A stretch of 30,502 nucleotides of DNA from a virus. Where the stretch lies: IMG/VR virus record IMGVR_UViG_3300036760_001436, positions 1 to 30,502 of that record; one strand, written 5' to 3'. The notes under the pieces are model-generated. The model saw only the letters and a program-made list of their open reading frames with translations. It made no database searches and was not told the origin of the DNA. Positions 11,611-29,720 of this stretch are shown one piece after another. A program made the translations under genes and the position numbers. The number at the start of each line of letters is the position of its first letter. Positions within the stretch are counted from its first letter, which is position 1.

Positions 11611-11630
11611 AATTCACTACTCACAATTCA
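11596..11630. repeat. 7-nt tandem array (5 units, CAATTCA type)
   Basis: Five units (TAATTCA, CCATTCA, CAATTCA, CTACTCA, CAATTCA) bridge TerL and portal. The TerL TGA (11628-11630) and the portal GTG (11608-11610) are both inside it. Confidence 0.92.
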
Positions 11631-13133
11631 ACGTAAGAATCCTCTCACCCCGAACAATCCCCGGCGGGCGCGTTCGAGCACGCCCGCGTGTACGGGTTCT
11701 TCTTCTTCGGATTCTTCAATCGCCGCTTCACCCCGGCGTCCCGTTCTCTCCTCGAACACCGACCGCCGGCGGACTGGAACTTCTTCGATATCGTCATTCC
11801 CCGCGCAAGCCGCCGCTGGCCCGGAGGTTGCCGAGGCTGCTCCGGAAAGCGCTGCAGCCCAGAATTCGTCAGCGTGCCCCGCGTCAGTGCGCTCCGCATC
11901 GAACCGGAAATGCCCGGTAGGTGCGCTGTAGCGCTTGACCGCATTAAACGCCCGACGAATAGCGGCGGAGGCGGGAATGCGTTCCTTGCGGTTCTCCAGG
12001 CTGGCCTTCAAGCCTGTGGCCATGCGTTCCTTGTTCTCTAGGTTGAAGACTACCGCCTCAACCTTGGCGCCGAACTTCTGCACTGCCTCTTCCGCTAGTT
12101 GCGCCCCGATCCCCGTGGCATCGATACATGCCCGGCGGACGTGCGGCAGGATTTCGAACAGTTGCTGGCGCTGGATGTTGAATGGAGTGCGTTCCATCCC
12201 CAGGACCATGCGGGTCCAGAAGACATCCCCGACTTTTTCCCGCAGCCAGATATCGCTGCGATCTTTCTTCCGCCCGACGTCCATCCCAAGGAATAGATCG
12301 CCATGCGGGCCTTCCAGAAAGCCCCGAGGCAGATCAACGGTGGCTTCGGTGTGTTCCGAGACCACAATCAGTTCCATGGGGATGTAGTTCTCAGCGTCGG
12401 CCAGAAAGACGCATTCCTCTTCCTGCAGCCAGGTATCCTCATCATCGGCGGCCGCGCGCAATGCCTTGATATCCAGCGGGCAGCCTTGGGCCACGGCGGA
12501 ATGAACGTCCACCCAATGCACCGACCACACGTCAGATTGCCACCGGGCCTGCGATGCCGCGCCTATCGCCGGCACGCCCAGTTTGCGGGCCAGTTCCCAG
12601 TATTTTCCCTGCTGGCCGTTGGGCGTGGAAATCACCTCGAGCTGGAACCCGCGTGAGACGATAGCCAGTGCGGCGCGCCAGATCTTGACGGGGTCGCGGT
12701 GAAACGCAAACTCGTTCAGCACTACGTCGCCGGTGTAGCCACGGATGGTGTCCGGATTGGCGGGCAGGGCCAGGATGCGCCCGCCGTTATGGCTGAAGCT
12801 CACTTGCCGCGCCTTTTCCTCGTACTTGGGGAACTCGATCTCCTCATATTCAAACTTCGTGCGTAAGGCGTCCAGGTGCATCCGGACCTTCTCCATGGCT
12901 TCCAGCGACTGCCGATCGCTGGCGGCAATCCACACCGTCAGACCGCCAAACTTGATGCGCTTGCGTACTTGGCGCAGGGTAGCGCAGAAGTCTTTGCCGA
13001 TCTGCCGCGAGGCCACCCAGAACTTGAACCGCGTTTCGTCCGCAATCCAGGCTTCCTGGTAGGGATAAAGCCTGATGCGCGGTCCGTTCTCGCCGGTCTG
13101 CTCGGCGTCACTTTTTGGGTTCCGTAATGCCAT
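11628..13133 (-). CDS. Terminase large subunit (ATPase-nuclease)
   Basis: The product is 501 aa; the chosen ATG ends at 13133, with an in-frame ATG three codons upstream (13142) also possible. The ATPase half has a Walker A-like FWVASRQIGKDF (about residues 38-49) and a Walker B-like DVVLNEFAFH (~136-145). Here the usual Asp before Glu is Asn. The motif III-like 'VISTPNG' follows. The nuclease half has Asp near 285 (FLGMDVGRKKDRSD), Asp near 338 (ACIDATGIGAQLAEE) and 'GHADEFWAAAL' near 420, the RNase H-fold acidic set. TerL packages DNA into the prohead. It overlaps the small-terminase-like gene and precedes the portal. Confidence 0.9.
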   Translation of the reverse strand: MALRNPKSDAEQTGENGPRIRLYPYQEAWIADETRFKFWVASRQIGKDFCATLRQVRKRIKFGGLTVWIAASDRQSLEAMEKVRMHLDALRTKFEYEEIEFPKYEEKARQVSFSHNGGRILALPANPDTIRGYTGDVVLNEFAFHRDPVKIWRAALAIVSRGFQLEVISTPNGQQGKYWELARKLGVPAIGAASQARWQSDVWSVHWVDVHSAVAQGCPLDIKALRAAADDEDTWLQEEECVFLADAENYIPMELIVVSEHTEATVDLPRGFLEGPHGDLFLGMDVGRKKDRSDIWLREKVGDVFWTRMVLGMERTPFNIQRQQLFEILPHVRRACIDATGIGAQLAEEAVQKFGAKVEAVVFNLENKERMATGLKASLENRKERIPASAAIRRAFNAVKRYSAPTGHFRFDAERTDAGHADEFWAAALSGAASATSGPAAACAGNDDIEEVPVRRRSVFEERTGRRGEAAIEESEEEEPVHAGVLERARRGLFGVRGFLR

Positions 13134-13698
13134 ACAAATCATCCAGACGGCGTTGCAATTCCGCCCCGCTCAACTTCTTCTTGCCTACATCGTCGCGCAA
13201 CCCCCGCACTTTCTCCCGCAGCAAGGACAGTTTCTGCTTTTCGAGTTCCAGGCGTTCCCGGTTGACTTGATTGTTTTGCTCGACGGCCTTCACTCGCCGC
13301 TCTTCGATATCCCGCTTGCGCATTTCCAGTTCGGCGCGAATCACCACCTCGGGACTTACCGCGCTCTGCCGAAACTCTTCCGAGGCTTGGCGCTGGCGCA
13401 GCCAGCCGCGCAGCAGCACATCTTCCGGGACGTCGGGGTGCCGAGCCTTTAATTGGGCAAATTCGGCGGCATCCGCAATCGCCTTTTCCGCGTCCACCCT
13501 GTCCGGCAGGACCCGCCGCGTGATCCAGGAATAAAGGGTGGAAAGTGCCAGAGGCTTCCCGAATTTCTTTTCGTAGGCCTCGACCGTCGCCAGACGTTTC
13601 ATTCTGGCGTCTTCGCAGGCACGGAGGAATAGCCGCTCGCCTTCGGGCAGCATCTCCACTTTCGTCCATCGCGCCGTGCGCTTGGGTCTGTCTGTCAC
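13108..13698 (-). CDS. DUF3486-like protein, probable small terminase subunit
   Basis: The product is 196 aa. Helix-turn-helix-like 'KFGKPLALSTLYSWITRRVL' lies at residues ~45-65, followed by a long charged coiled coil (about 115-180). This matches Mu gp27/DUF3486 proteins, which precede TerL in Mu-like phages and act as the DNA-recognising small terminase. The gene overlaps the TerL start by 26-35 nt, indicating coupling. A 7-nt array (CCTGTCA) lies upstream. Confidence 0.75.
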   Translation of the reverse strand: MTDRPKRTARWTKVEMLPEGERLFLRACEDARMKRLATVEAYEKKFGKPLALSTLYSWITRRVLPDRVDAEKAIADAAEFAQLKARHPDVPEDVLLRGWLRQRQASEEFRQSAVSPEVVIRAELEMRKRDIEERRVKAVEQNNQVNRERLELEKQKLSLLREKVRGLRDDVGKKKLSGAELQRRLDDLYGITEPKK

Positions 13699-17030: not shown

Positions 17031-17294
17031 TTACACTTTATGCTTTTTGGCCCTGTTTTTCGGCCGCCCCAGATCGCCATCGCTCAGATTCATGACTGGC
17101 TGGCCAGGTCGCCCCACCACTGCCCGGGGCCCCGAGCCGCGGCGCATCTGGTTGAATAATTCACGTTCGCTCGCCTCGTAAATCCTCCCCGGACGCCGAT
17201 GTGATTCCCAGCAAACATCAAACGTGGGTCCCGACGGGCAACGCGTGATGCCGTGGGTGCGAATGAATTCGAGTTGGTCAGTGCTCAGCGCCAC
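17031..17294 (-). CDS. Small protein at the start of the late-side gene series
   Basis: The product is 87 aa, GTG start ending at 17294 with GAGG 8 nt upstream. It is charged, with two Cys (CPSGPTFDVC) and a Lys/Arg-rich end (GRPKNRAKKHKV). It is the first minus-strand gene left of the plus-strand island, so it may be the first gene of the late/lysis transcript. A Mor/C activator would be expected near here, but no activator pattern is recognisable. Confidence 0.55.
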   Translation of the reverse strand: MALSTDQLEFIRTHGITRCPSGPTFDVCWESHRRPGRIYEASERELFNQMRRGSGPRAVVGRPGQPVMNLSDGDLGRPKNRAKKHKV

Positions 17295-17384: not shown

Positions 17385-17413
17385 TTGACAAACCTAACGT
17401 TAGGTATTATATT
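17385..17413 (+). promoter_or_regulatory. Consensus sigma-70 promoter with palindromic operator in the spacer
   Basis: TTGACA (17385-17390) is separated by exactly 17 nt from TATATT (17408-17413). The spacer contains the 14-bp perfect palindrome ACCTAACGTTAGGT (17392-17405). A dimeric repressor bound there would block RNA polymerase. It drives the two plus-strand genes that follow. Confidence 0.8.
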
Positions 17414-17437
17414 GAAGACGTAAGATGGAGATGAGAG

Positions 17438-17698
17438 ATGGCAGGCCAGATGGTTCAAATCGAAATCGGACGCGTTGTGAAGGAAACTCCCAGGGCGATT
17501 CAAGTGGAGATCGAAGTCGGGCGCTCGGATGGCAGCGCGCGGAGTTGGACTCTCTGGCTGCCGAAAAGCCAAATCTCTATCGTCGGATCGACCGTTACCC
17601 TGCCCGAATGGCTGGGGGCCGAAAAGATGACTGAGGTCTTTGAAAAGACGAACAGCCTTATCGTGGTCCGGTATTCGAACGGCGATGTGATGCTGTAA
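17438..17698 (+). CDS. Moron gene 1: small beta-rich protein
   Basis: The product is 86 aa, starting at the ATG about 25 nt after the expected transcript start, with a GGAG-containing ribosome binding site. Sequence alternates hydrophobic and charged residues (VQIEIGRVVKETPRAIQVEI), suggesting a small beta barrel or sheet, and ends with VVRYSNGDVML. It has no recognisable family, signal or membrane segment. It is opposite in strand to its neighbours and is in an island with promoter and terminator, so it is probably expressed in the lysogen. Candidate roles include defence, anti-defence or host modulation; none is shown. Confidence 0.75.
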   Translation: MAGQMVQIEIGRVVKETPRAIQVEIEVGRSDGSARSWTLWLPKSQISIVGSTVTLPEWLGAEKMTEVFEKTNSLIVVRYSNGDVML

Positions 17699-17713
17699 TT
17701 CAGAGGAGGAGAT

Positions 17714-18022
17714 ATGAATCGAAGTGAAGCTGCACGTCTGATGGGTTCGGCCCGCACGCCCGCCAAAATGGCGGCGGCGCGTGAAAACGGCAAACTGGGG
17801 GGACGCCCGCCGGGGAATACGATCCGGATTAAGGGACAACTGATCGAAGTCGTGCGCAAATTCCACGCGGGGTTGAAAGCCACGCATAATCGAGACGGCC
17901 GCTACAATTTGGTTTGGGCGATCACCGCTGATGGCCATATCTATCGCACCTACGGTCGCCGCGGGGGAACCTGGCGTGAGACTCGCGCTGGCGAGATTCC
18001 CCCACCCGCATTGACCGCTTGA
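17714..18022 (+). CDS. Moron gene 2: small basic, possibly DNA-binding protein
   Basis: The product is 102 aa with a strong AGGAGG ribosome binding site, 15 nt after gene 1. The N-terminus (MNRSEAARLMGSARTPAKMA) leads to ENGKLGGRPPG, a basic Gly-Arg-Pro motif common in small bacterial proteins and AT-hook-like. The C-terminal half is beta-like (YNLVWAITADGHIYRTYGRRG). It could be the regulator that binds the palindrome in the promoter, making the pair self-controlled; that is inference. The gene ends one base before the convergent minus-strand gene's stop. Confidence 0.75.
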   Translation: MNRSEAARLMGSARTPAKMAAARENGKLGGRPPGNTIRIKGQLIEVVRKFHAGLKATHNRDGRYNLVWAITADGHIYRTYGRRGGTWRETRAGEIPPPALTA

Positions 18023-18023
18023 A

Positions 18024-18587
18024 TTAAATTTCAATCTTTGCTCCTATCGCCCCGGCCTGCTCCGGGGCGTTTTGTTTTTCCGTTCGACTTTCAACTTTCG
18101 ACTTTCGACGGGGCGCCAACCGCGCGCGCACTTCCTCGATCTCGACGCCATCCCGGCGGGCAATCCGGCTCATGAGTTCTTCCGCTTCGCTCCAGAACTG
18201 TCTCGGGACTAGGGACTCGGGACTCGGGACTCGAAAACGCTGGATAAGACGTTCGCGCAGAATCGCGTGCCACTGGCCGCCGAAGAGTTCGGCGGCCAGT
18301 TCGCCCAACTTCAGCGCGCGCCAAGCCGCATTCGATCCGGAGGCTTCCTTGAGTGCGCGCAGCAGCCGGTTCGCCTCACCATAAGTAAGCGTGGCCCAAG
18401 TAGTCACGGGGCGGTGCAGGACCTCAGTCGACCAGCGATGCCGAGCATCGTCCTCGGAACATTCCCAAACTAGTTCCGGAGAAAATTTCGCCCATTCCGC
18501 CCGCAACGCCCGATGCTGCCATAAGGCAATCATTTTGCGGCGCGCCTGTGGCGCCCGCTGGGATTCGGTTTGTGTCTCCGTGGTCAT
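18024..18587 (-). CDS. Early/middle gene, possible GemA-position protein
   Basis: The product is 187 aa from the ATG ending at 18587, overlapping the upstream stop (ATGA). It is helical and Trp/Ala/Arg-rich (IALWQHRALRAEWAKF; WATLTYGEANRLLRALKEA; GELAAELFGGQWHAIL). The early-region position and repeated helices with a 'LT..E...LL..L' run suggest a counterpart of Mu GemA, but similarity is weak. The SPESLVPR stretch is encoded by an internal 7-nt array, and the C-terminus by another array and by the moron terminator sequence. Confidence 0.6.
   Translation of the reverse strand: MTTETQTESQRAPQARRKMIALWQHRALRAEWAKFSPELVWECSEDDARHRWSTEVLHRPVTTWATLTYGEANRLLRALKEASGSNAAWRALKLGELAAELFGGQWHAILRERLIQRFRVPSPESLVPRQFWSEAEELMSRIARRDGVEIEEVRARLAPRRKSKVESRTEKQNAPEQAGAIGAKIEI
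18048..18080 (+). terminator. Rho-independent terminator of the plus-strand island
   Basis: CGCCCCGG (18048-18055) pairs with CCGGGGCG (18062-18069) around a 6-nt loop. The stem is followed by TTTTGTTTTT. It ends the promoter-driven two-gene transcript and lies inside the 3' end of the opposite gene. Confidence 0.9.
18082..18109. repeat. 7-nt tandem array (4 units, TTTCGAC type)
   Basis: GTTCGAC, TTTCAAC, TTTCGAC, TTTCGAC lie right after the terminator and inside the minus-strand gene (RKSKVESRTE). Confidence 0.9.
18203..18236. repeat. 7-nt tandem array (TCGGGAC type) in coding sequence
   Basis: Four to five TCGGGAC/TAGGGAC units in frame encode VPSPESLVPR in the 18024-18587 protein. Confidence 0.9.
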
Positions 18588-18796
18588 TTCTTCTTCGGCA
18601 ACCGAGAGATTTCGCGCAGGGTCTTGCAAAATAGTTCGATTGTCCGCGGTTGCATGACGACGGATTGGCCGTCTTGATCGATGCAGATTGCCCCATTGCT
18701 ATCGACGTGAATTACAACAGCCTGTTCAGGGACCCCATCCGCGCCGCCGTCGTCCCAAATCACGCGACCATGGTTAAATACGTGGGTAACTGTCAT
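18584..18796 (-). CDS. Small uncharacterised early protein
   Basis: The product is 70 aa; the start ends at 18796 because AAAGGAGG lies 5 nt upstream, whereas the longer frame would start in repeat DNA. It is a beta-rich acidic protein (VTHVFNHGRVIWDDGGADGV) with a basic C-terminal helix (FCKTLREISRLPKKK). It overlaps the next gene by ATGA, so it belongs to the early series. No family recognised. Confidence 0.65.
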   Translation of the reverse strand: MTVTHVFNHGRVIWDDGGADGVPEQAVVIHVDSNGAICIDQDGQSVVMQPRTIELFCKTLREISRLPKKK

Positions 18797-19310: not shown

Positions 19311-19508
19311 TTACCCATCATCCTCGGAAACATAGTGATCAAGACGCTCATCGATGGCCGTCAGGGAAGTCCCGAGCGCTTTTTCAATCACGTCGGCAAG
19401 CCCATCGGTGTCTGGTATTAGGTCTTCAGATTCAGACTCATCCATGTCGGACGGCCTGAAAATCTCTACCTTGAATTTTCTCAGAAGCACTTGTTTCCTG
19501 TGGCTCAT
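19311..19508 (-). CDS. Small acidic protein
   Basis: The product is 65 aa from the ATG ending at 19508 (MSHRKQVLLRKFKVEIFRPS), overlapping the upstream stop (ATGA). A basic start gives way to a strongly acidic remainder (DMDESESEDLIPDTDGLADV). A DNA-mimic role is conceivable, but there is no direct support. A longer upstream frame is repeat-derived. Confidence 0.55.
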   Translation of the reverse strand: MSHRKQVLLRKFKVEIFRPSDMDESESEDLIPDTDGLADVIEKALGTSLTAIDERLDHYVSEDDG

Positions 19509-20032
19509 CGCGCCTCCGGTGTTTCTCGGGACTCGGGGCTCGGGACTGGGGGTTCGCCCCTCGGCTTTGCTCGGGGCCCTGAGCCTGTCGAAGGGGGGTT
19601 CGGAATTCGGGTTTCGGGCGGCCCGAACCATTCCCACAGACCTAGTCTCCCCCCCGCCGGAATTGGTGGTTCGAAGATGCGAGTGATCGGGCCGAGCACC
19701 CACGCAAACCGCCCGCCACTGTACTCGCCAAATTGTTTTTCATTTGTGGAGAGCTGGTCCATGTCCAGAGTCCATGTCTTTAGGCAATCCTCGATCGATA
19801 CGACGCAGAGGATCTTGCCCAGGGGAAGAGACTCAGGGTTCAAGTGATGCCTGACGAGTACCGTTGAGAACGGAGGGATAAAGCATTGGCGCTTGGCCCA
19901 TCCGGGGAAGGCCTTCGAGGCGTGGATGGCCAGGGGTCCTCGATAGGCGGTGTACCAGGATCGCGTCTCGATCCGCTTTTCATTGAGCGCAATAAGTGAA
20001 GCCCAAGGCTGAGTTAGAGTGAGAACTTTCAT
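19505..20032 (-). CDS. ASCH-domain protein with repeat-encoded tail
   Basis: The product is 175 aa. Residues ~1-135 match the ASCH fold: MKVLTLTQPWASLIALNEKR start, 'ETRSWYTAYRGPLAIHASKAFP', and a later 'GRFAWVLGPITRIFEP' strand with 'LGLWEWFGP'. ASCH proteins bind RNA or modified nucleosides in host and phage contexts; the substrate here is unknown. The last ~35 residues (FGPPETRIPNPPSTGSG onward) are encoded by 7-nt arrays plus an interspersed FDRLRA-type element and are presumably disordered. It is ATGA-linked on both sides. Confidence 0.85.
   Translation of the reverse strand: MKVLTLTQPWASLIALNEKRIETRSWYTAYRGPLAIHASKAFPGWAKRQCFIPPFSTVLVRHHLNPESLPLGKILCVVSIEDCLKTWTLDMDQLSTNEKQFGEYSGGRFAWVLGPITRIFEPPIPAGGRLGLWEWFGPPETRIPNPPSTGSGPRAKPRGEPPVPSPESRETPEAR
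19524..19567. repeat. 7-nt tandem array (TCGGGAC type)
   Basis: TCGGGAC, TCGGGGC, TCGGGAC, TGGGGGT and weaker units encode the C-terminal PSPESRETP of the ASCH protein. Confidence 0.85.
19576..19596. repeat. Interspersed element (FDRLRA type)
   Basis: Contains CCCTGAGCCTGTCGAAGGG, a short dispersed sequence recalled from many bacterial genomes. It lies in the ASCH gene's 3' extension. Confidence 0.65.
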
Positions 20033-21493: not shown

Positions 21494-21528
21494 AACTTCA
21501 GCTTTCAGGCTTCAGCCTTCAGCTTTCT
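21494..21528. repeat. 7-nt tandem array (5 units, GCTTTCA type)
   Basis: AACTTCA, GCTTTCA, GGCTTCA, GCCTTCA, GCTTTCT fill the gap after Gam and encode its last residues (KAEG). Confidence 0.92.
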
Positions 21529-21910
21529 CATTGCGCGCCAGTTTCAGATAGAACGCCTCGTACCCCGCCACTAGCACGATGCCCTGCGTGCGGCAGGCGG
21601 CGATGATGTCCTGGTCAGCCTTTTCGAGGAACCGCCGCAGGCCCGGCTTCTCAGCCACGGGCTTGAGTTTGATGAATTTGCCGCCGTGGAACCCCCGCAG
21701 CCAATCGAAGGCGTCACTCGGAACCTGGACCGTGCGCGCGATTTTCTGAAACCCGACGATGGCTGGGCCCAGGACCCGCGCCTTGCCGACCGCGTCATGC
21801 CGCCGCTCGCAGAATTCACGCAGTTCCTCTTTGATGATCTCGAGTTGCGAGGTGAGTTCGGCAAACTCTGTGGCCGCGATTTCCGCGTCTTCCCAGGTTT
21901 TCAGTTCCAT
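21512..21910 (-). CDS. gam: Gam-like host-nuclease inhibitor
   Basis: The product is 132 aa from the ATG ending at 21910 (MELKTWEDAEIAATEFAELT), with GAGGAG upstream. The layout follows Mu Gam: an N-terminal long helix/coiled coil (about residues 1-45), a short central segment with 'VQVPSDAFDWLRGF' and a C-terminal helical part (LRRFLEKADQDIIAACRTQG) ending in beta 'IVLVAGYEAFYLKL'. Gam coats DNA ends as a dimer and protects them from host exonucleases. Gam is typical of the early region of transposable phages, which is where this lies. Confidence 0.75.
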   Translation of the reverse strand: MELKTWEDAEIAATEFAELTSQLEIIKEELREFCERRHDAVGKARVLGPAIVGFQKIARTVQVPSDAFDWLRGFHGGKFIKLKPVAEKPGLRRFLEKADQDIIAACRTQGIVLVAGYEAFYLKLARNEKAEG

Positions 21911-21912
21911 GA

Positions 21913-22206
21913 TTAACTCCTCTCCACGGATTGACCAAGCGGCTGTTGCACCAAGAGACCGACCTTCTCGTCGACTGAGAGCCTGGACCACAGGCGGTCG
22001 AGTTCGGCATGCCGGGCGCGAATTGCGGCGCGGCGCGTGGCTTCGTCAGGCTTCAGCCCCCAGGTGGTGCGGATGCCGAGATGCCGGCGGTACTTGCGCA
22101 CTGTCCATCGCGAGCAGCCCAATACGCGGCCGATGGCGCGGTCGGAGAGGCCACGCCCCACCAGCACTGGCAGCCGGGCAAGATCGAGATGGAGGCGGCA
22201 GTACAT
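21913..22206 (-). CDS. Small HTH protein
   Basis: The product is 97 aa with HTH-like 'GRGLSDRAIGRVLGCSRWTV' at about 18-37, very similar to the HTH of the 20965-21492 protein. The C-terminal 'HAELDRLWSRLSVDEKVGLL' is likewise shared. It is separated from the Gam start by only 2 nt. A likely early transcription regulator or DNA-binding accessory. Confidence 0.7.
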   Translation of the reverse strand: MYCRLHLDLARLPVLVGRGLSDRAIGRVLGCSRWTVRKYRRHLGIRTTWGLKPDEATRRAAIRARHAELDRLWSRLSVDEKVGLLVQQPLGQSVERS

Positions 22207-23739: not shown

Positions 23740-24753
23740 TCAGTTCGCCTTCCGTTTCGCGCGCGCCTCGCGGAAATCCCGAATGGCGTTGAACAGTCGA
23801 TGGGCGTTGACGTAGTGCCGATGGGTGACGGGATCATCGACGGTACACTTCTCCACGATGTCGGCGGCGGTGGTTTCCTTGAGTTCGCCTAGTTCGCCTG
23901 CGACCATCGCTCGAGCCTCCGCCGACGACGGGCCCACCACACGCAACTCCTCTTGTTGAATTCTTCCGCGCCACTTCTCGAAATACACTCCACGGCGGTT
24001 TTCGAAGATCTGCATCACGCGTTCGTTGCCGGCCACCAGAATGCCGAGGCCCGCGCGGGCGGGCCTGCCCGCCTCGGCGGGGCGCACGCGCGCGAGATCG
24101 CCAATCTCGCGTAATGTTTCCAGAGTCTCCACCCAACGATAGAGCGCGTCAGCTTCATCCATCACCAGGGCCACGGAAGTGCGGCGGCGCCGCAGAGCAT
24201 AGAGGACGCTCTGGCGGATGGCCTCAGTAGATTGAGCGTAAGGCGCCCCCAGGGCCGCCGCCAGACGATGCAACAGAACGCTGGCGGTCATCCCCGAGGG
24301 TGATGACCGGAGGTAGACCAGGGGCGGTTCGAACTCCCGGGCCGCCTGCGCCCCGCGATATTCGAGCAGAAAACTTTTCTGCGCTCCGGAGGGTCCGTAG
24401 AGGATTCCCCAGCCGCCGGTGCAGACGTGCGCCAGCAGGTTATCTATCTGCCGGGTGGCAGTGGTTTCGTATAGTTTTCCAGGAGATTCCGGAACGGGAA
24501 AGGGGTTCTCCGCCATCCACTTCTGGATTACCTCGGCAGCCACATGGCCGTTGCTGTCTCCGTAACGCGCTCCGGAGACGAATTGGCGCAACGAGTAGAC
24601 CGAATACCCGATGCGTTCCGCGAGTTGCGGCAGGGTAAGCCCGCTGCGCGACATGTAGATGTGCAGACTGCGCCGAGTTTCTTCCCTGCCTGCCGGGCGG
24701 GCATTTCCCGCAAGCAGGTCCGCGCTCACCGATGGCCGGGTGGTCTGATTCAT
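23740..24753 (-). CDS. MuB-like AAA+ ATPase, transposition target-DNA activator
   Basis: The product is 337 aa. Residues ~28-62 form an N-terminal HTH (SLHIYMSRSGLTLPQLAERI), as in MuB. Walker A is GPSGAQKS (120-127) and Walker B VALVMDE (194-200). The sensor-like 'LGILVAGNERVMQIF' follows. MuB binds DNA non-specifically, recruits target DNA and stimulates MuA strand transfer. The region around residues 227-237 (RPAEAGRPARAG) is encoded by a GC-rich nested palindrome. The start overlaps the upstream gene (ATGA). In Mu, B follows A directly; here one extra gene lies between them. Confidence 0.85.
   Translation of the reverse strand: MNQTTRPSVSADLLAGNARPAGREETRRSLHIYMSRSGLTLPQLAERIGYSVYSLRQFVSGARYGDSNGHVAAEVIQKWMAENPFPVPESPGKLYETTATRQIDNLLAHVCTGGWGILYGPSGAQKSFLLEYRGAQAAREFEPPLVYLRSSPSGMTASVLLHRLAAALGAPYAQSTEAIRQSVLYALRRRRTSVALVMDEADALYRWVETLETLREIGDLARVRPAEAGRPARAGLGILVAGNERVMQIFENRRGVYFEKWRGRIQQEELRVVGPSSAEARAMVAGELGELKETTAADIVEKCTVDDPVTHRHYVNAHRLFNAIRDFREARAKRKAN
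24043..24078. repeat. GC-rich nested palindrome inside the MuB gene
   Basis: Inner arms GGCGGGC/GCCCGCC (24058-24073) lie within outer arms GCCGAGGC/GCCTCGGC (24043-24050, 24071-24078). It encodes a Pro/Ala/Gly/Arg-rich loop (PAEAGRPARAG) next to the ATPase core. Confidence 0.75.
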
Positions 24754-25640
24754 CGTTCCACCCCAGCAATCGCGAATCTGCCGACATTGACCCCCCAGAA
24801 CCGCTGCCGTTGGCGGGGTTTTCTCTTGGATAACTGGATTGGCCGTATCCTTGTTTCGGTTGTCAAGTCACCGGGACGGAATTTCCGATTTCGCGCCAGC
24901 CTGATGGCTCTCGCCAAACTCCCAAACCTGGTCCGATAGCTCGTTTCGTTTGGAAGGAGTCCCCTTCTACAGTCGGATGGATGTGGCGCCCTGCTTTGGG
25001 TGTGGATGAAATTCCTTATGTGCGCCAACAGGGCGGTGTCACTCCACCTCGCTTGGTCACGTCCTTGGATTCTGGCAAGTTTGAAAAGCCTCTCAAGAGA
25101 GCCGAAGTGAGCCTTGAGGGTATTCGGGGAAAGTCCAAACTCGGGCATTTCACTACAACTAGGCGCCCGTCCTAATTGCTCCGCGGCCTTGCGAAGGCGG
25201 TCAACGATCTGAACATCGCATAGGCCTCGGGAATTATCGGTTTCCGCAGTTCGGTGAGAGGAAACCTTGCGGGGCAAATGTGCAGATGAACGCCTCCACC
25301 GGTCGAGCGCCGCAAGCCTTCGCGTCTGACGTTCCCGATCTCCTAGGGCTCTTGCAATGAACGCCTTGCGGGTCGATTCTGAGAGGAGCGCGGATTTCGG
25401 GCGCAGGCCGTGCCGAATTTTGTATTCCCTTGCGTTCATCCCGTGTACGCGGATGTGTGCGCCGAGAGCCTTGAGGAATATTCCGCATTCGTGGCATTTC
25501 ACCAAACCATTTTCCAGGTCATACTCGAGGGCGCCTTTGACCGACACACCCGATTTTTTATAAGGACCCTTAGCGTCGTAGAAAAGCACCTCGCCCGCGA
25601 TGATGACGTGTGTGGCGTGTCCAACGACCTTCGGTTTCAT
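24750..25640 (-). CDS. Ros/MucR-type zinc finger with HNH-associated repeats
   Basis: The product is 296 aa. Residues ~47-80 hold a C2H2 finger of Ros/MucR type (CHECGIFLKALGAHIRVHGM with C49, C52, H62, H66, then AREYKIRHGL). Two repeats at ~147-191 and ~204-250 share the pattern '..R.PS/..D......L....Y...FGSL.RA..LAR' seen in HNH-endonuclease-associated repeat domains (GRAPSCSEMPEFGLSPNTLK; SRAPHPSDCRRGLLPNETSY). They probably bind DNA. No HNH nuclease core is seen. It lies between the transposase and MuB genes with ATGA linkage to MuB, so a role in transposition control or DNA targeting is plausible. Confidence 0.75.
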   Translation of the reverse strand: MKPKVVGHATHVIIAGEVLFYDAKGPYKKSGVSVKGALEYDLENGLVKCHECGIFLKALGAHIRVHGMNAREYKIRHGLRPKSALLSESTRKAFIARALGDRERQTRRLAALDRWRRSSAHLPRKVSSHRTAETDNSRGLCDVQIVDRLRKAAEQLGRAPSCSEMPEFGLSPNTLKAHFGSLERLFKLARIQGRDQARWSDTALLAHIRNFIHTQSRAPHPSDCRRGLLPNETSYRTRFGSLARAIRLARNRKFRPGDLTTETRIRPIQLSKRKPRQRQRFWGVNVGRFAIAGVER

Positions 25641-25712: not shown

Positions 25713-27848
25713 CTACCCTTCCTCCATCTCCAGGGCCCGGCGAGCGATTTCGCCGCTGGTCAGATGGCGTTTCCTCAGCCCCAGACGTTCGCCCACAAAC
25801 TCCGTACTTGATGTCTCAGGATGCCCCAGCGGCGGCCGCGCCGGCGCGCCGAAGGTTGCGGGAAGGAGTTTTGATTCGACCGAGGCCTCCACCAACTCGA
25901 GCGGATGCCGCGCCTCGGCCAGCATTTGCTGCGCTTCGATCCCGCGCTTCAAGGTGCGCTTCAGGGCCGCGCGGCAACGCAGTGCCAGGCGCAATTCTTC
26001 GCGGTCTTCCGGCAGCCAATCGAATTCCGGCTTAACCCCAGCCACGCAGGAGGCGGTGCCGCCGGGGATGGGATAGATCACCGTCACTTGCTGGAGATTT
26101 CGGCGGCTGGTCAGGACCTCAACTTCATCACCTTGCAGGAGGAAGAGTTCCGGGGCCGTGTATTCGATGGTGCGACCGTAAAAAGTCAGATTCACCTGGC
26201 CGCCGCGGGCGACTTTCACGAACCGGCGGTCGGCGGTATAGAAATCCACCTGGTCGCGGCCCAGCGTGCGCACACCCTCCGCCGGCAGGCGGGTGTTCCA
26301 CGCTTCCTGCGGCGTCATCCCTTCGAGATATTTTCCGCGCCCGCGATGCTGGCGGTTCCAGGTGTTCTCCGCCCAATCAAGAAACCCCCCGATGAAGACG
26401 TCGGCACGGAGCAGGGGTGAATGCCCCTGACCCGTTTTGAGCCACCTTTCATGCGCCGCTTCTTCGGCGATAAGTTTCTCGGGACGCTCATCGGGGCTCG
26501 CACCGCACCAGCCGGGCAGTTCGTGCGTCCATTGGTCGATTTCCGGATGCCACCGCTCGATGGTCTTCGATTGTGGATTGCGTCCGATGGCTTTCACCAC
26601 GCGGACGTCCAGGCGTTTCCAGAGTCCCAACGCCTCGCCAAACAGGGCTTCACCGGAAACCTGGAAGATGCCGCCGAGAAAACGTTTGCCGACAAATTCC
26701 TTCCCCAGGTCCATATGGACCGCATTCGGCACCCCGGCGCGTTCCAGGGCCATGGCGTAGGCGTACATCACCAGGTCACTCGAGAGATACGGCCCGATGG
26801 CCGCGCCCAGCCAGCGCCAGCTCGCCACGTCGAGCACATTCACCGCCCAGATGCGCCCCAGACGCTCCCCACCATCGCGCAGGCGCACATCGAAAAGTTT
26901 CTGGTCGGTCACCCACAATTCGTTCGAGCGGAGATTGTTCCCGCGCGAGATGTAAGGCGCGCAGCGATCGGCATAGGCTTTCTCGCCCTGGCGCGCCAGA
27001 ACACCTTCGGTCCGGGCGATTTGTTCGAGCACGGTGCGCGTCTGCCAGTAGGTCGGCTTCTCGTACTGGTGGCCGATTCCCCAGGCGCGTTGTTTGCTAT
27101 CGATTTCTTGGAGTAACAGTTCGTGCGCCCGCCGCATAGAAAGTTTCGCTTGGCGTAGATAGAAGCCACGCACCGTCGGCCACATCCAGGCGTTCTCTGG
27201 CTCCGTGAAAAAGGTGTGCCCACTACGGCCGGGACGCGGCTTGGGACGAACCTGCTCCGCGATGGCTTTCCATTTGCCGTCCTGGGGCACGTTCGGATCG
27301 GCCAGCACCACCCGTGCCGGTTTGAGTTTGGCGTAGATGGAGGCCACCGAAACGTCGTGGAGTTCGGCCAGGGCGCGCACGAATTCGTGGTTGTTGCGCA
27401 CTTCGATGCTGCCCAAGCGCTGCCCGCGATATTTCTTAAACGTTCCGTTCGTTGTCTGGGCCAGGATGTCAAGCCAGCGTTCGACGTATTCCCGATGCGC
27501 CGCGGGAATCGCGGCCATGGCGGAATCGATTTGCTGCTGGTAGGCCGAAACGCGCCCAAAAGGAAGTGCTGGCTGCAGGAGGGCCGCCGGAGAGGTGGGA
27601 ACGATTGCGGAAGCCTCGGGGACGGCTTGCGGCGTGGGCGAAGCGAAGGCCAGGGCGGCTTGCTCCTTCAACCAGTTCTCGTACCCGCGTGCAGAAAGTG
27701 CGGTCAACGGCATCAATTTGCGCCGGGAATCTTCGGGATCGTTCATCAAGCCAATCGGGGCGCGTTGCAGGCGCTTCTTTAAGCGCTGATAGGGAATGCC
27801 CTCGAGTGCGGCGCCTTGCTCGAGCGGGATGTAACCTTTGCTAGCCAT
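25713..27848 (-). CDS. Mu-type DDE transposase (MuA-like)
   Basis: The product is 711 aa, close to the size of MuA (663 aa). The N-terminal ~60 residues (GYIPLEQGAALEGIPYQRLK) are a winged-helix/HTH end-binding domain. The catalytic core has D315 (WVTDQKLFD), D380 (VHMDLGKEFVGKRF) and E431 (QSKTIERWHPEIDQW). Spacings of 65 and 51 match MuA-type DDE cores. A Mu-type C-terminal beta domain (~525-590) and basic C-terminal tail follow. It catalyses cutting and strand transfer of phage ends during integration and replication. Start ATG ends at 27848. An inverted repeat directly follows the stop. Confidence 0.93.
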   Translation of the reverse strand: MASKGYIPLEQGAALEGIPYQRLKKRLQRAPIGLMNDPEDSRRKLMPLTALSARGYENWLKEQAALAFASPTPQAVPEASAIVPTSPAALLQPALPFGRVSAYQQQIDSAMAAIPAAHREYVERWLDILAQTTNGTFKKYRGQRLGSIEVRNNHEFVRALAELHDVSVASIYAKLKPARVVLADPNVPQDGKWKAIAEQVRPKPRPGRSGHTFFTEPENAWMWPTVRGFYLRQAKLSMRRAHELLLQEIDSKQRAWGIGHQYEKPTYWQTRTVLEQIARTEGVLARQGEKAYADRCAPYISRGNNLRSNELWVTDQKLFDVRLRDGGERLGRIWAVNVLDVASWRWLGAAIGPYLSSDLVMYAYAMALERAGVPNAVHMDLGKEFVGKRFLGGIFQVSGEALFGEALGLWKRLDVRVVKAIGRNPQSKTIERWHPEIDQWTHELPGWCGASPDERPEKLIAEEAAHERWLKTGQGHSPLLRADVFIGGFLDWAENTWNRQHRGRGKYLEGMTPQEAWNTRLPAEGVRTLGRDQVDFYTADRRFVKVARGGQVNLTFYGRTIEYTAPELFLLQGDEVEVLTSRRNLQQVTVIYPIPGGTASCVAGVKPEFDWLPEDREELRLALRCRAALKRTLKRGIEAQQMLAEARHPLELVEASVESKLLPATFGAPARPPLGHPETSSTEFVGERLGLRKRHLTSGEIARRALEMEEG

Positions 27849-28403: not shown

Positions 28404-28482
28404 TTGAATGCCGTGAACTCAGGTTCACCATTTGTGCGGCCCCAATTGTGTAGTACACATTTGGCCTTGTCAACAGGAAAAT
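28404..28482. promoter_or_regulatory. Divergent early/repressor control region
   Basis: Two palindromes stand here. GTGAACTCAGGTTCAC (28413-28428) has 6-bp arms and a 4-nt spacer. TGTGTAGTACACA (28447-28459) has 6-bp arms around one base. They lie between the early regulator gene (minus) and the XRE repressor candidate (plus). They are candidate operators for the two regulators. Confidence 0.7.
28445..28473 (-). promoter_or_regulatory. Candidate early promoter
   Basis: On the minus strand TTGACA (28473-28468) is followed after 17 nt by CACAAT (28450-28445), a 4/6 match to TATAAT. The 13-bp palindrome lies in the spacer and touches the -10 box. It would drive the long early operon. Confidence 0.6.
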
Positions 28483-28857
28483 ATGGGTCTGGAAGAAAAA
28501 GTTTTGCCGGCTAAAATAGGTGTTGGCGCGGCCCTGAAATTGCTAGGGGAGCGACTAAGGCTGACCCAGGACGGCATGGCCCGGAAGTTGGGCTGCACTT
28601 TCAGCGCTTACTCGAAATGGCTTAGGGGTGAACGCATTCCCAGCGGCCAATGGATGCTACGGATCCTGGCCCTCTGCCCGGACGAAGAGACGTGGGCGGC
28701 TTTTTTTGTTGACATTGGCGAAGTCGGCAGTAAGATTCGTTCCAGTGCCCGGGCCGAAGTGCCGATAGGAGAGAAGGAGGCGCCGCATCCGGGCGGCACA
28801 CGCGCCAGTGGGAAACTCGCCTCTAGATACTACAAGCCCAACCCCAACCGGAGATGA
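28483..28857 (+). CDS. XRE-type HTH protein, lysogeny repressor candidate
   Basis: The product is 124 aa from the ATG at 28483, with AGGA 5 nt upstream; the longer frame starts within the control region. The HTH core (LKLLGERLRLTQDGMARKLG ... YSKWLRGERIPSGQW) is a Cro/C1-type fold. It is divergent from the early operon, so it may repress it in the lysogen. The C-terminal half is charged, with a Gly/Pro-rich end. It is shorter than typical two-domain repressors and lacks a protease-like domain. Confidence 0.75.
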   Translation: MGLEEKVLPAKIGVGAALKLLGERLRLTQDGMARKLGCTFSAYSKWLRGERIPSGQWMLRILALCPDEETWAAFFVDIGEVGSKIRSSARAEVPIGEKEAPHPGGTRASGKLASRYYKPNPNRR

Positions 28858-29619: not shown

Positions 29620-29704
29620 AGACGCACCACCCGCCATCCGAAATCCCTTGACGCTATGCCCTTCCTTATATATAGTGGCCGTAGCCTCCATGGGGGTGCG
29701 CACC
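29620..29704 (+). promoter_or_regulatory. Promoter of the 119-aa gene
   Basis: TTGACG (29648-29653) and TATAGT (29671-29676) are 17 nt apart, a good sigma-70 match. The transcript would start near 29683, leaving a leader of about 22 nt before the ATG at 29705. GGTGCGCACC (29695-29704) is a 10-bp palindrome in the leader. Confidence 0.7.
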
Positions 29705-29720
29705 ATGGGAACGTTCCCAT
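29705..29720. promoter_or_regulatory. 16-bp perfect palindrome over a start codon
   Basis: ATGGGAACGTTCCCAT is self-complementary and contains the ATG of the gene. It could be an operator or an RNA hairpin-forming site limiting translation. Confidence 0.7.

Follow-up and report, generated by a model that had tools for sequence, protein, structure and literature searches.

A cassette with an in-spacer palindrome in a Mu-like phage and the recurrent linkage of its GGRP segment to a common operator

Two kinds of described operon lie closest to the locus reported here. In the acr-aca circuits of phages, expression bursts in a naive cell and then falls to a low level, and their regulators, Aca1-10, are helix-turn-helix (HTH) proteins (PMC9410906). 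Among toxin-antitoxin systems, the DhiTA (DUF4160/DUF2442) operon is autoregulated in vivo (PMC8198452), and a review groups the DNA-binding domains of antitoxins into HTH, RHH and AbrB types (PMC4803016).

The window analysed here is a complete IMG/VR record of 30,502 bases and encodes a Mu-like phage. It contains a cassette of two genes, named P86 and P102 after the lengths of their products, that resembles acr-aca operons in being phage-borne and autonomous, in carrying a small cargo gene followed by a small gene for the proposed regulator and in having an inverted repeat in the core promoter. Unlike those operons, its second protein lacks an HTH match, its operator has a different sequence and its first protein is not a known Acr. 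The cassette also shares a protein segment (designated GGRP and N-terminal in P102) and an operator with certain DUF4160-DUF2442 operons, namely those with GGRP-tailed members, in which the cargo or toxin gene likewise comes first, but DUF2442 is absent from P102 and DUF4160 from P86. The same segment and operator occur in HicA-HicB operons with a GGRP-tailed HicB (L115, L118 and L121), whereas the cassette has no HicA or HicB domains.

Anatomy and setting of the cassette

The elements of the cassette are as follows.

17385-17413, + strand: promoter, with -35 TTGACA at 17385-17390, a 17-nt spacer and -10 TATATT at 17408-17413
17391-17406, no strand assigned: predicted in-spacer operator AACCTAACGTTAGGTA, 13/14 to the consensus AACCYAA-N2-TTRGGTT
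17438-17698, + strand: P86, cargo gene, 86 aa, divergent member of the phrog_8389-like 'WLPKSQ...PEWL' family
17702-17709, + strand: ribosome-binding-site-like AGAGGAGG before P102, read directly
17714-18022, + strand: P102, proposed autoregulator, 102 aa, with an N-terminal GGRP segment and an orphan C-terminal part of ~66 residues
17720-17821, + strand: GGRP segment of P102 (residues ~3-36), RSEAARLMGSARTPAKMAAARENGKLGGRPPGNT, placed by domain HMM and alignment
18048-18079, + strand: intrinsic terminator with an 8-bp G-C stem, a 6-nt loop and a T tract

TTGACA-17-TATATT is the sole promoter-like site in the window to score at least 11/12, with 0.05 such sites expected by simulation. A perfect 14-bp palindrome, ACCTAACGTTAGGT, lies at 17392-17405, entirely within the spacer. 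Palindromes of 14 bp are not rare alone (four found in the window versus 2.7 expected), but by our estimate the chance that one falls within the spacer of the best promoter is about 1 in 1000. Scored against the operator consensus that we later derived, AACCYAA-N2-5-TTRGGTT, the cassette site matches at 13/14 positions with a gap of 2, is centred 14 nt downstream of the -35 start and is the only site in the window to reach at least 12/14. A different perfect palindrome, of 16 bp (ATGGGAACGTTCCCAT, 29705-29720), is found near the right-end genes, directly downstream of the promoter-like TTGACG-17-TATAGT at 29648; it is possibly a second operator of another kind.

The single promoter and the single terminator serve P86, which has a ribosome-binding-site-like leader, and then P102, with 15 nt between the two genes. 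The terminator stem (18048-18069) has eight G-C pairs followed by TTTTGTTTTT, folds at -17.2 kcal/mol (z = -3.6) and overlaps the 3' end of the opposing gene at 18024-18629. Computation thus establishes the anatomy that the original prediction had described: a consensus -35 and a near-consensus -10 around the palindrome, two + strand genes and a strong terminator, all opposite to the neighbouring genes. With its own promoter and terminator and oppositely oriented neighbours, the locus has the form of a moron, and this anatomy supports the proposal of a self-contained accessory cassette.

The following features of the phage give the cassette its setting.

11628-13142: TerL-like protein, which served as bait for relatives
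17031-17294, - strand: flanking gene, 87 aa, no homologue found
18024-18629, - strand: flanking early gene, conserved in L086 (45% over 141 aa), no family match
21512-21991: Mu Gam-like protein, weak match
23740-24753: MuB-like ATPase
25713-27848: transposase
28432-28857, + strand like the cassette: HTH repressor

Nearly all genes between 28403 and 1 are on the - strand, including the likely genes on both sides of the cassette (17031-17294 on one, 18024-18629 and beyond on the other). The cassette itself is on the + strand, with early genes to one side and the lysis/head region to the other. A search of the window against Rfam returned no family. The early operon also includes an HNH-repeat plus ROS/MUCR protein and an ASCH-domain protein (24750-25640 and 19505-20032). 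Short repeated words occur at 18083-18109 and 18202-18229 (TTCGACTTTCAACTTTCGACTTTCGAC and GGGACTCGGGACTCGGGACTCG); in several early genes, words like these code for stretches resembling 'PESRVPSPESR' and are therefore interspersed repeats inside phage ORFs.

Only one relative found, L086, conserves both flanks; the cassette is absent there, and co-oriented phage genes occupy its place. The contigs of the closest relatives, L002 and L003, stop short of this place. Neither MuA nor the product of 18024-18629 retrieved relatives when used as a query against viral contigs. Whole P86 and P102 found no close relative among viral contigs and only weak local matches among annotated phages, and no viral contig or syntenic relative was found to carry the exact P86-P102 gene pair.

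The first gene and its relatives

Both genes had been described as unknown. The N-terminus of P102, as opposed to its orphan C-terminal part, recurs elsewhere, and P86 is a divergent relative of the uncharacterised family phrog_8389. The entry to this family was a weak match in a methanogen virus, which gave a signature and then a DNA pattern, WLPKS-P[ED]W. This pattern found 44 viral loci, and the small proteins encoded at 43 of them carry T..A, WLPKSQ and PEWLA.EK. P86 carries the signature (T..A, WLPKSQ and P[ED]WL, the last as PEWL) together with an extra C-terminal tail relative to the family. Against a profile of these relatives built without it, P86 scores E = 5e-12 and shuffled copies give no match, a score that is partly circular because the collecting pattern was derived from P86. 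The independent PHROG match of P86 to phrog_8389 is weak (E = 0.015), and phrog_8389 is matched by 24/25 of the WLPKSQ members scanned.

The neighbours of P86 relatives include genes for DNA polymerase A, a SNF2-type helicase, RecT, Rad52 and Sak4, as well as PD-(D/E)XK nucleases and an Enc34-type ssDNA-binding protein, and some WLPKSQ loci have virion genes as neighbours instead. Since its relatives are often encoded in replication and recombination operons, we infer a probable action of P86 on the replication or recombination of DNA, either of the phage or of the host. The usual context of these proteins is a co-oriented early operon, whereas here P86 stands in an isolated unit predicted to be autoregulated.

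P86 is predicted to fold into a small domain rich in beta structure, ending in a C-terminal helix (pLDDT 78). Foldseek and VIA-align comparisons of this model with the PDB gave no convincing fold, and its best viral structural matches are uncharacterised phage proteins. Apparent P86 matches in two Acidobacteriota genomes were rejected as chance hits in unrelated reading frames. P86 showed no resemblance to known Acr proteins in the libraries searched. The original prediction had also suggested an anti-defence or lysogenic-conversion role; such a role is at most conjectural, because P86 proves to be kin to a widespread family of small phage proteins, one often found in DNA replication and recombination operons.

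The GGRP segment and its operator

Relatives of P102 were found only for its first ~35 residues, with the pattern A..LG..GG..S..K..AaR.NGk.GGRPk. A domain HMM built from them without P102 matches P102 at E = 1.8e-11, and computation thus places the homology of P102 in this segment. The segment has no Pfam, PHROG or NCBIfam model, and searches of the same three libraries for an HTH in P102 and in stand-alone GGRP proteins gave no match; nor did the segment match the HTH, RHH or AbrB types. A single-sequence fold prediction for P102 was unusable (pLDDT 43). The likeness to known DNA-binding proteins is very weak: 'AAAR..G..GGRP.K' resembles residues 127-142 of the arm of the serine invertase Gin (PDB 4m6f and 3uj3; profile E = 0.34), but only over the second half of the segment, and the HTH of the Gin/Hin invertases is absent. 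In Gin, this arm contacts the minor groove.

One phage GGRP gene, in L241, is preceded by TTGACGAAACCCGACGATAGGTTTATTATG, which is close to the cassette promoter, and this likeness led us to examine the link between segment and operator systematically. In 6.25 million strand-nt of DNA examined, 12/61 promoter elements with a palindrome in the spacer are found directly ahead of a GGRP motif, compared with ~0.6 expected by length. We also scanned IMG/VR with the consensus promoter-palindrome pattern alone, excluding protein information. The 16 loci found represent 13 distinct ones, and in 12 of these a GGRP gene follows on the same strand, 86-1100 nt downstream (11 recognised by the HMM and that of L304 by eye). 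As background, 3.07 + 0.77 million strand-nt of unrelated phage loci contained no GGRP HMM match. In all 25 elements checked, the palindrome is centred mid-spacer, 14-17 nt downstream of where the -35 begins. The gene order also recurs, with the cargo first and the GGRP gene second, while the small cargos differ.

Judged by a site of at least 12/14 within 700 nt upstream, on a consensus partly tuned on sequences later scored, the operator precedes 7/12 host, 12/17 plasmid toxin-antitoxin and 32/122 phage GGRP genes, compared with 64/1099 controls. The other 90/122 phage proteins with the motif have no such site upstream, and some of them are replication initiators with the motif inside a larger protein. 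The operator without a promoter is not a predictor of GGRP genes, and we rejected it as such: 199 Acidobacteriota genomes contained two perfect sites, both with a gap of 4, lacking promoter context and with no GGRP domain nearby, and a reversed control pattern was commoner in Acidobacteriota genomes than the perfect operator pattern. The exact cassette operator occurs in 1/297 Acidobacteriota genomes, followed by a 59-aa protein (...ASILGRR...AKGGRPKKK) that is segment-like by eye and weak by HMM.

On plasmids, the DUF2442 antitoxins of DUF4160-DUF2442 operons carry GGRP as a C-terminal tail, and the same operator is found ahead of these operons. It also precedes chromosomal HicA-HicB and DUF2442 operons with a GGRP tail. 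A site of at least 12/14 is present in 18/22 operons with GGRP-tailed DUF2442 or HicB antitoxins versus 3/51 tailless ones (Fisher p = 1.4e-10). The tailless set came from DUF2442 and HicB family-based searches blind to the tail, which gave 60 loci without it, and tailed and tailless loci were scored alike. In an apparent exception, L320 (1136-1675 of the Aeromonas caviae plasmid pKAM345_4), the DUF2442 antitoxin has lost its tail by a frameshift and the operator has been kept. In L322 the annotated start that the site overlaps is probably wrong.

Several further arrangements were seen. The Novosphingobium plasmid pLA5 (L312) carries about six operator-like sites some 100-330 nt before position 1734, upstream of a GGRP-tailed DUF2442 gene that has no annotated DUF4160 partner. 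In L303 and L293 the operator, a GGRP gene and a tyrosine-integrase-like gene stand in line, so that the switch may also control integrases, and a single phage contig, L305, carries two separate operator-cargo-GGRP cassettes. In another class of GGRP genes (L186, L204, L234, L235, L263, L265 and L271), a closely similar site of the AACCYAYCGTTGGGTTA type lies 53-56 nt before the segment; several of these proteins have a zinc-ribbon-like start, MKCPxC.

Proposed circuit and competing readings

We consider the cassette, on sequence evidence, to be probably an independently transcribed and negatively autoregulated accessory operon in which P102 represses its own promoter and P86 is the payload. 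That the second protein may regulate itself through the palindrome was part of the original prediction; its support now comes from the comparative linkage of segment and operator, which computation establishes statistically, rather than from P102 being basic. Direct binding, repression and timing are inferred as follows. When phage DNA enters a cell without P102, the near-consensus promoter would fire and both proteins would be made. P102, probably as a dimer and through its N-terminal GGRP segment, would then bind AACCTAACGTTAGGTA between the -35 and the -10 and exclude RNA polymerase. As P102 would thereby block its own promoter, an early burst of expression would give way to a low level in the prophage. 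The terminator would insulate the cassette from opposing early transcripts.

If P86 were instead a toxin and P102 its antitoxin, GGRP would autoregulate the operon and the C-terminal part of P102 would neutralise P86. This is conceivable because the order and sizes of the two genes match those of the toxin-antitoxin relatives: in DUF4160-DUF2442 and HicA-HicB operons the segment is on the antitoxin, the toxin gene comes first and the same operator lies upstream. We nevertheless regard it as unlikely. P86 matched no toxin family in Pfam, PHROGs or NCBIfam, 43 phage loci encode relatives of it but, in the DNA examined, no GGRP gene (many of these relatives lie inside replication operons), and its gene does not overlap that of P102, unlike the genes of most toxin-antitoxin operons with the segment. 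The frequent position of those relatives next to DNA polymerase, helicase and recombinase genes could mean that P86 is a displaced core replication gene, an ordinary early gene in a separate unit with no accessory function. This seems very doubtful for a gene that here lies on the opposite strand with a promoter, operator and terminator to itself and that none of the syntenic relatives found has at this place.

Least probable, in our judgement, is a moron under other control, with the palindrome bound by the phage repressor (28432-28857) or by a host regulator and P102 doing another job. The phage does have an HTH repressor gene on the strand of the cassette, and P102 itself matches no HTH. 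Yet unrelated phages, plasmids and chromosomes, which share no such repressor, have the operator together with GGRP genes, and the window, including the surroundings of the repressor gene, contains no second site of at least 12/14; because second sites are absent, we set the phage repressor aside as the owner of the palindrome.

Beyond the autoregulated cassette itself, we think it likely, though with slightly less assurance, that GGRP (~35 residues, with no library model and without an HTH) is a sequence-specific DNA-binding module, as yet undescribed, that recognises a palindromic operator of its own, AACCYAA-N2-5-TTRGGTT, and that the two have travelled together among accessory cassettes of phages, integrase units and, in two toxin-antitoxin families unrelated to each other, the antitoxins. 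The segment-operator pair may be new, as a library of papers searched for the GGRP motif, its operator and Aca-like microproteins yielded no description. If this is correct, phages, plasmids and chromosomes would have in common a plug-in autoregulation module that annotation leaves unnamed. GGRP could then be used as bait for hidden phage cargo genes, much as Aca genes are for anti-CRISPRs, and the operator-segment pair would serve to mine phage accessory genes of unknown function and would provide GGRP-tailed DUF2442 and HicB antitoxins with their DNA-binding half. The cassette in this Mu-like phage would gain a testable candidate regulator and a class of cargo.
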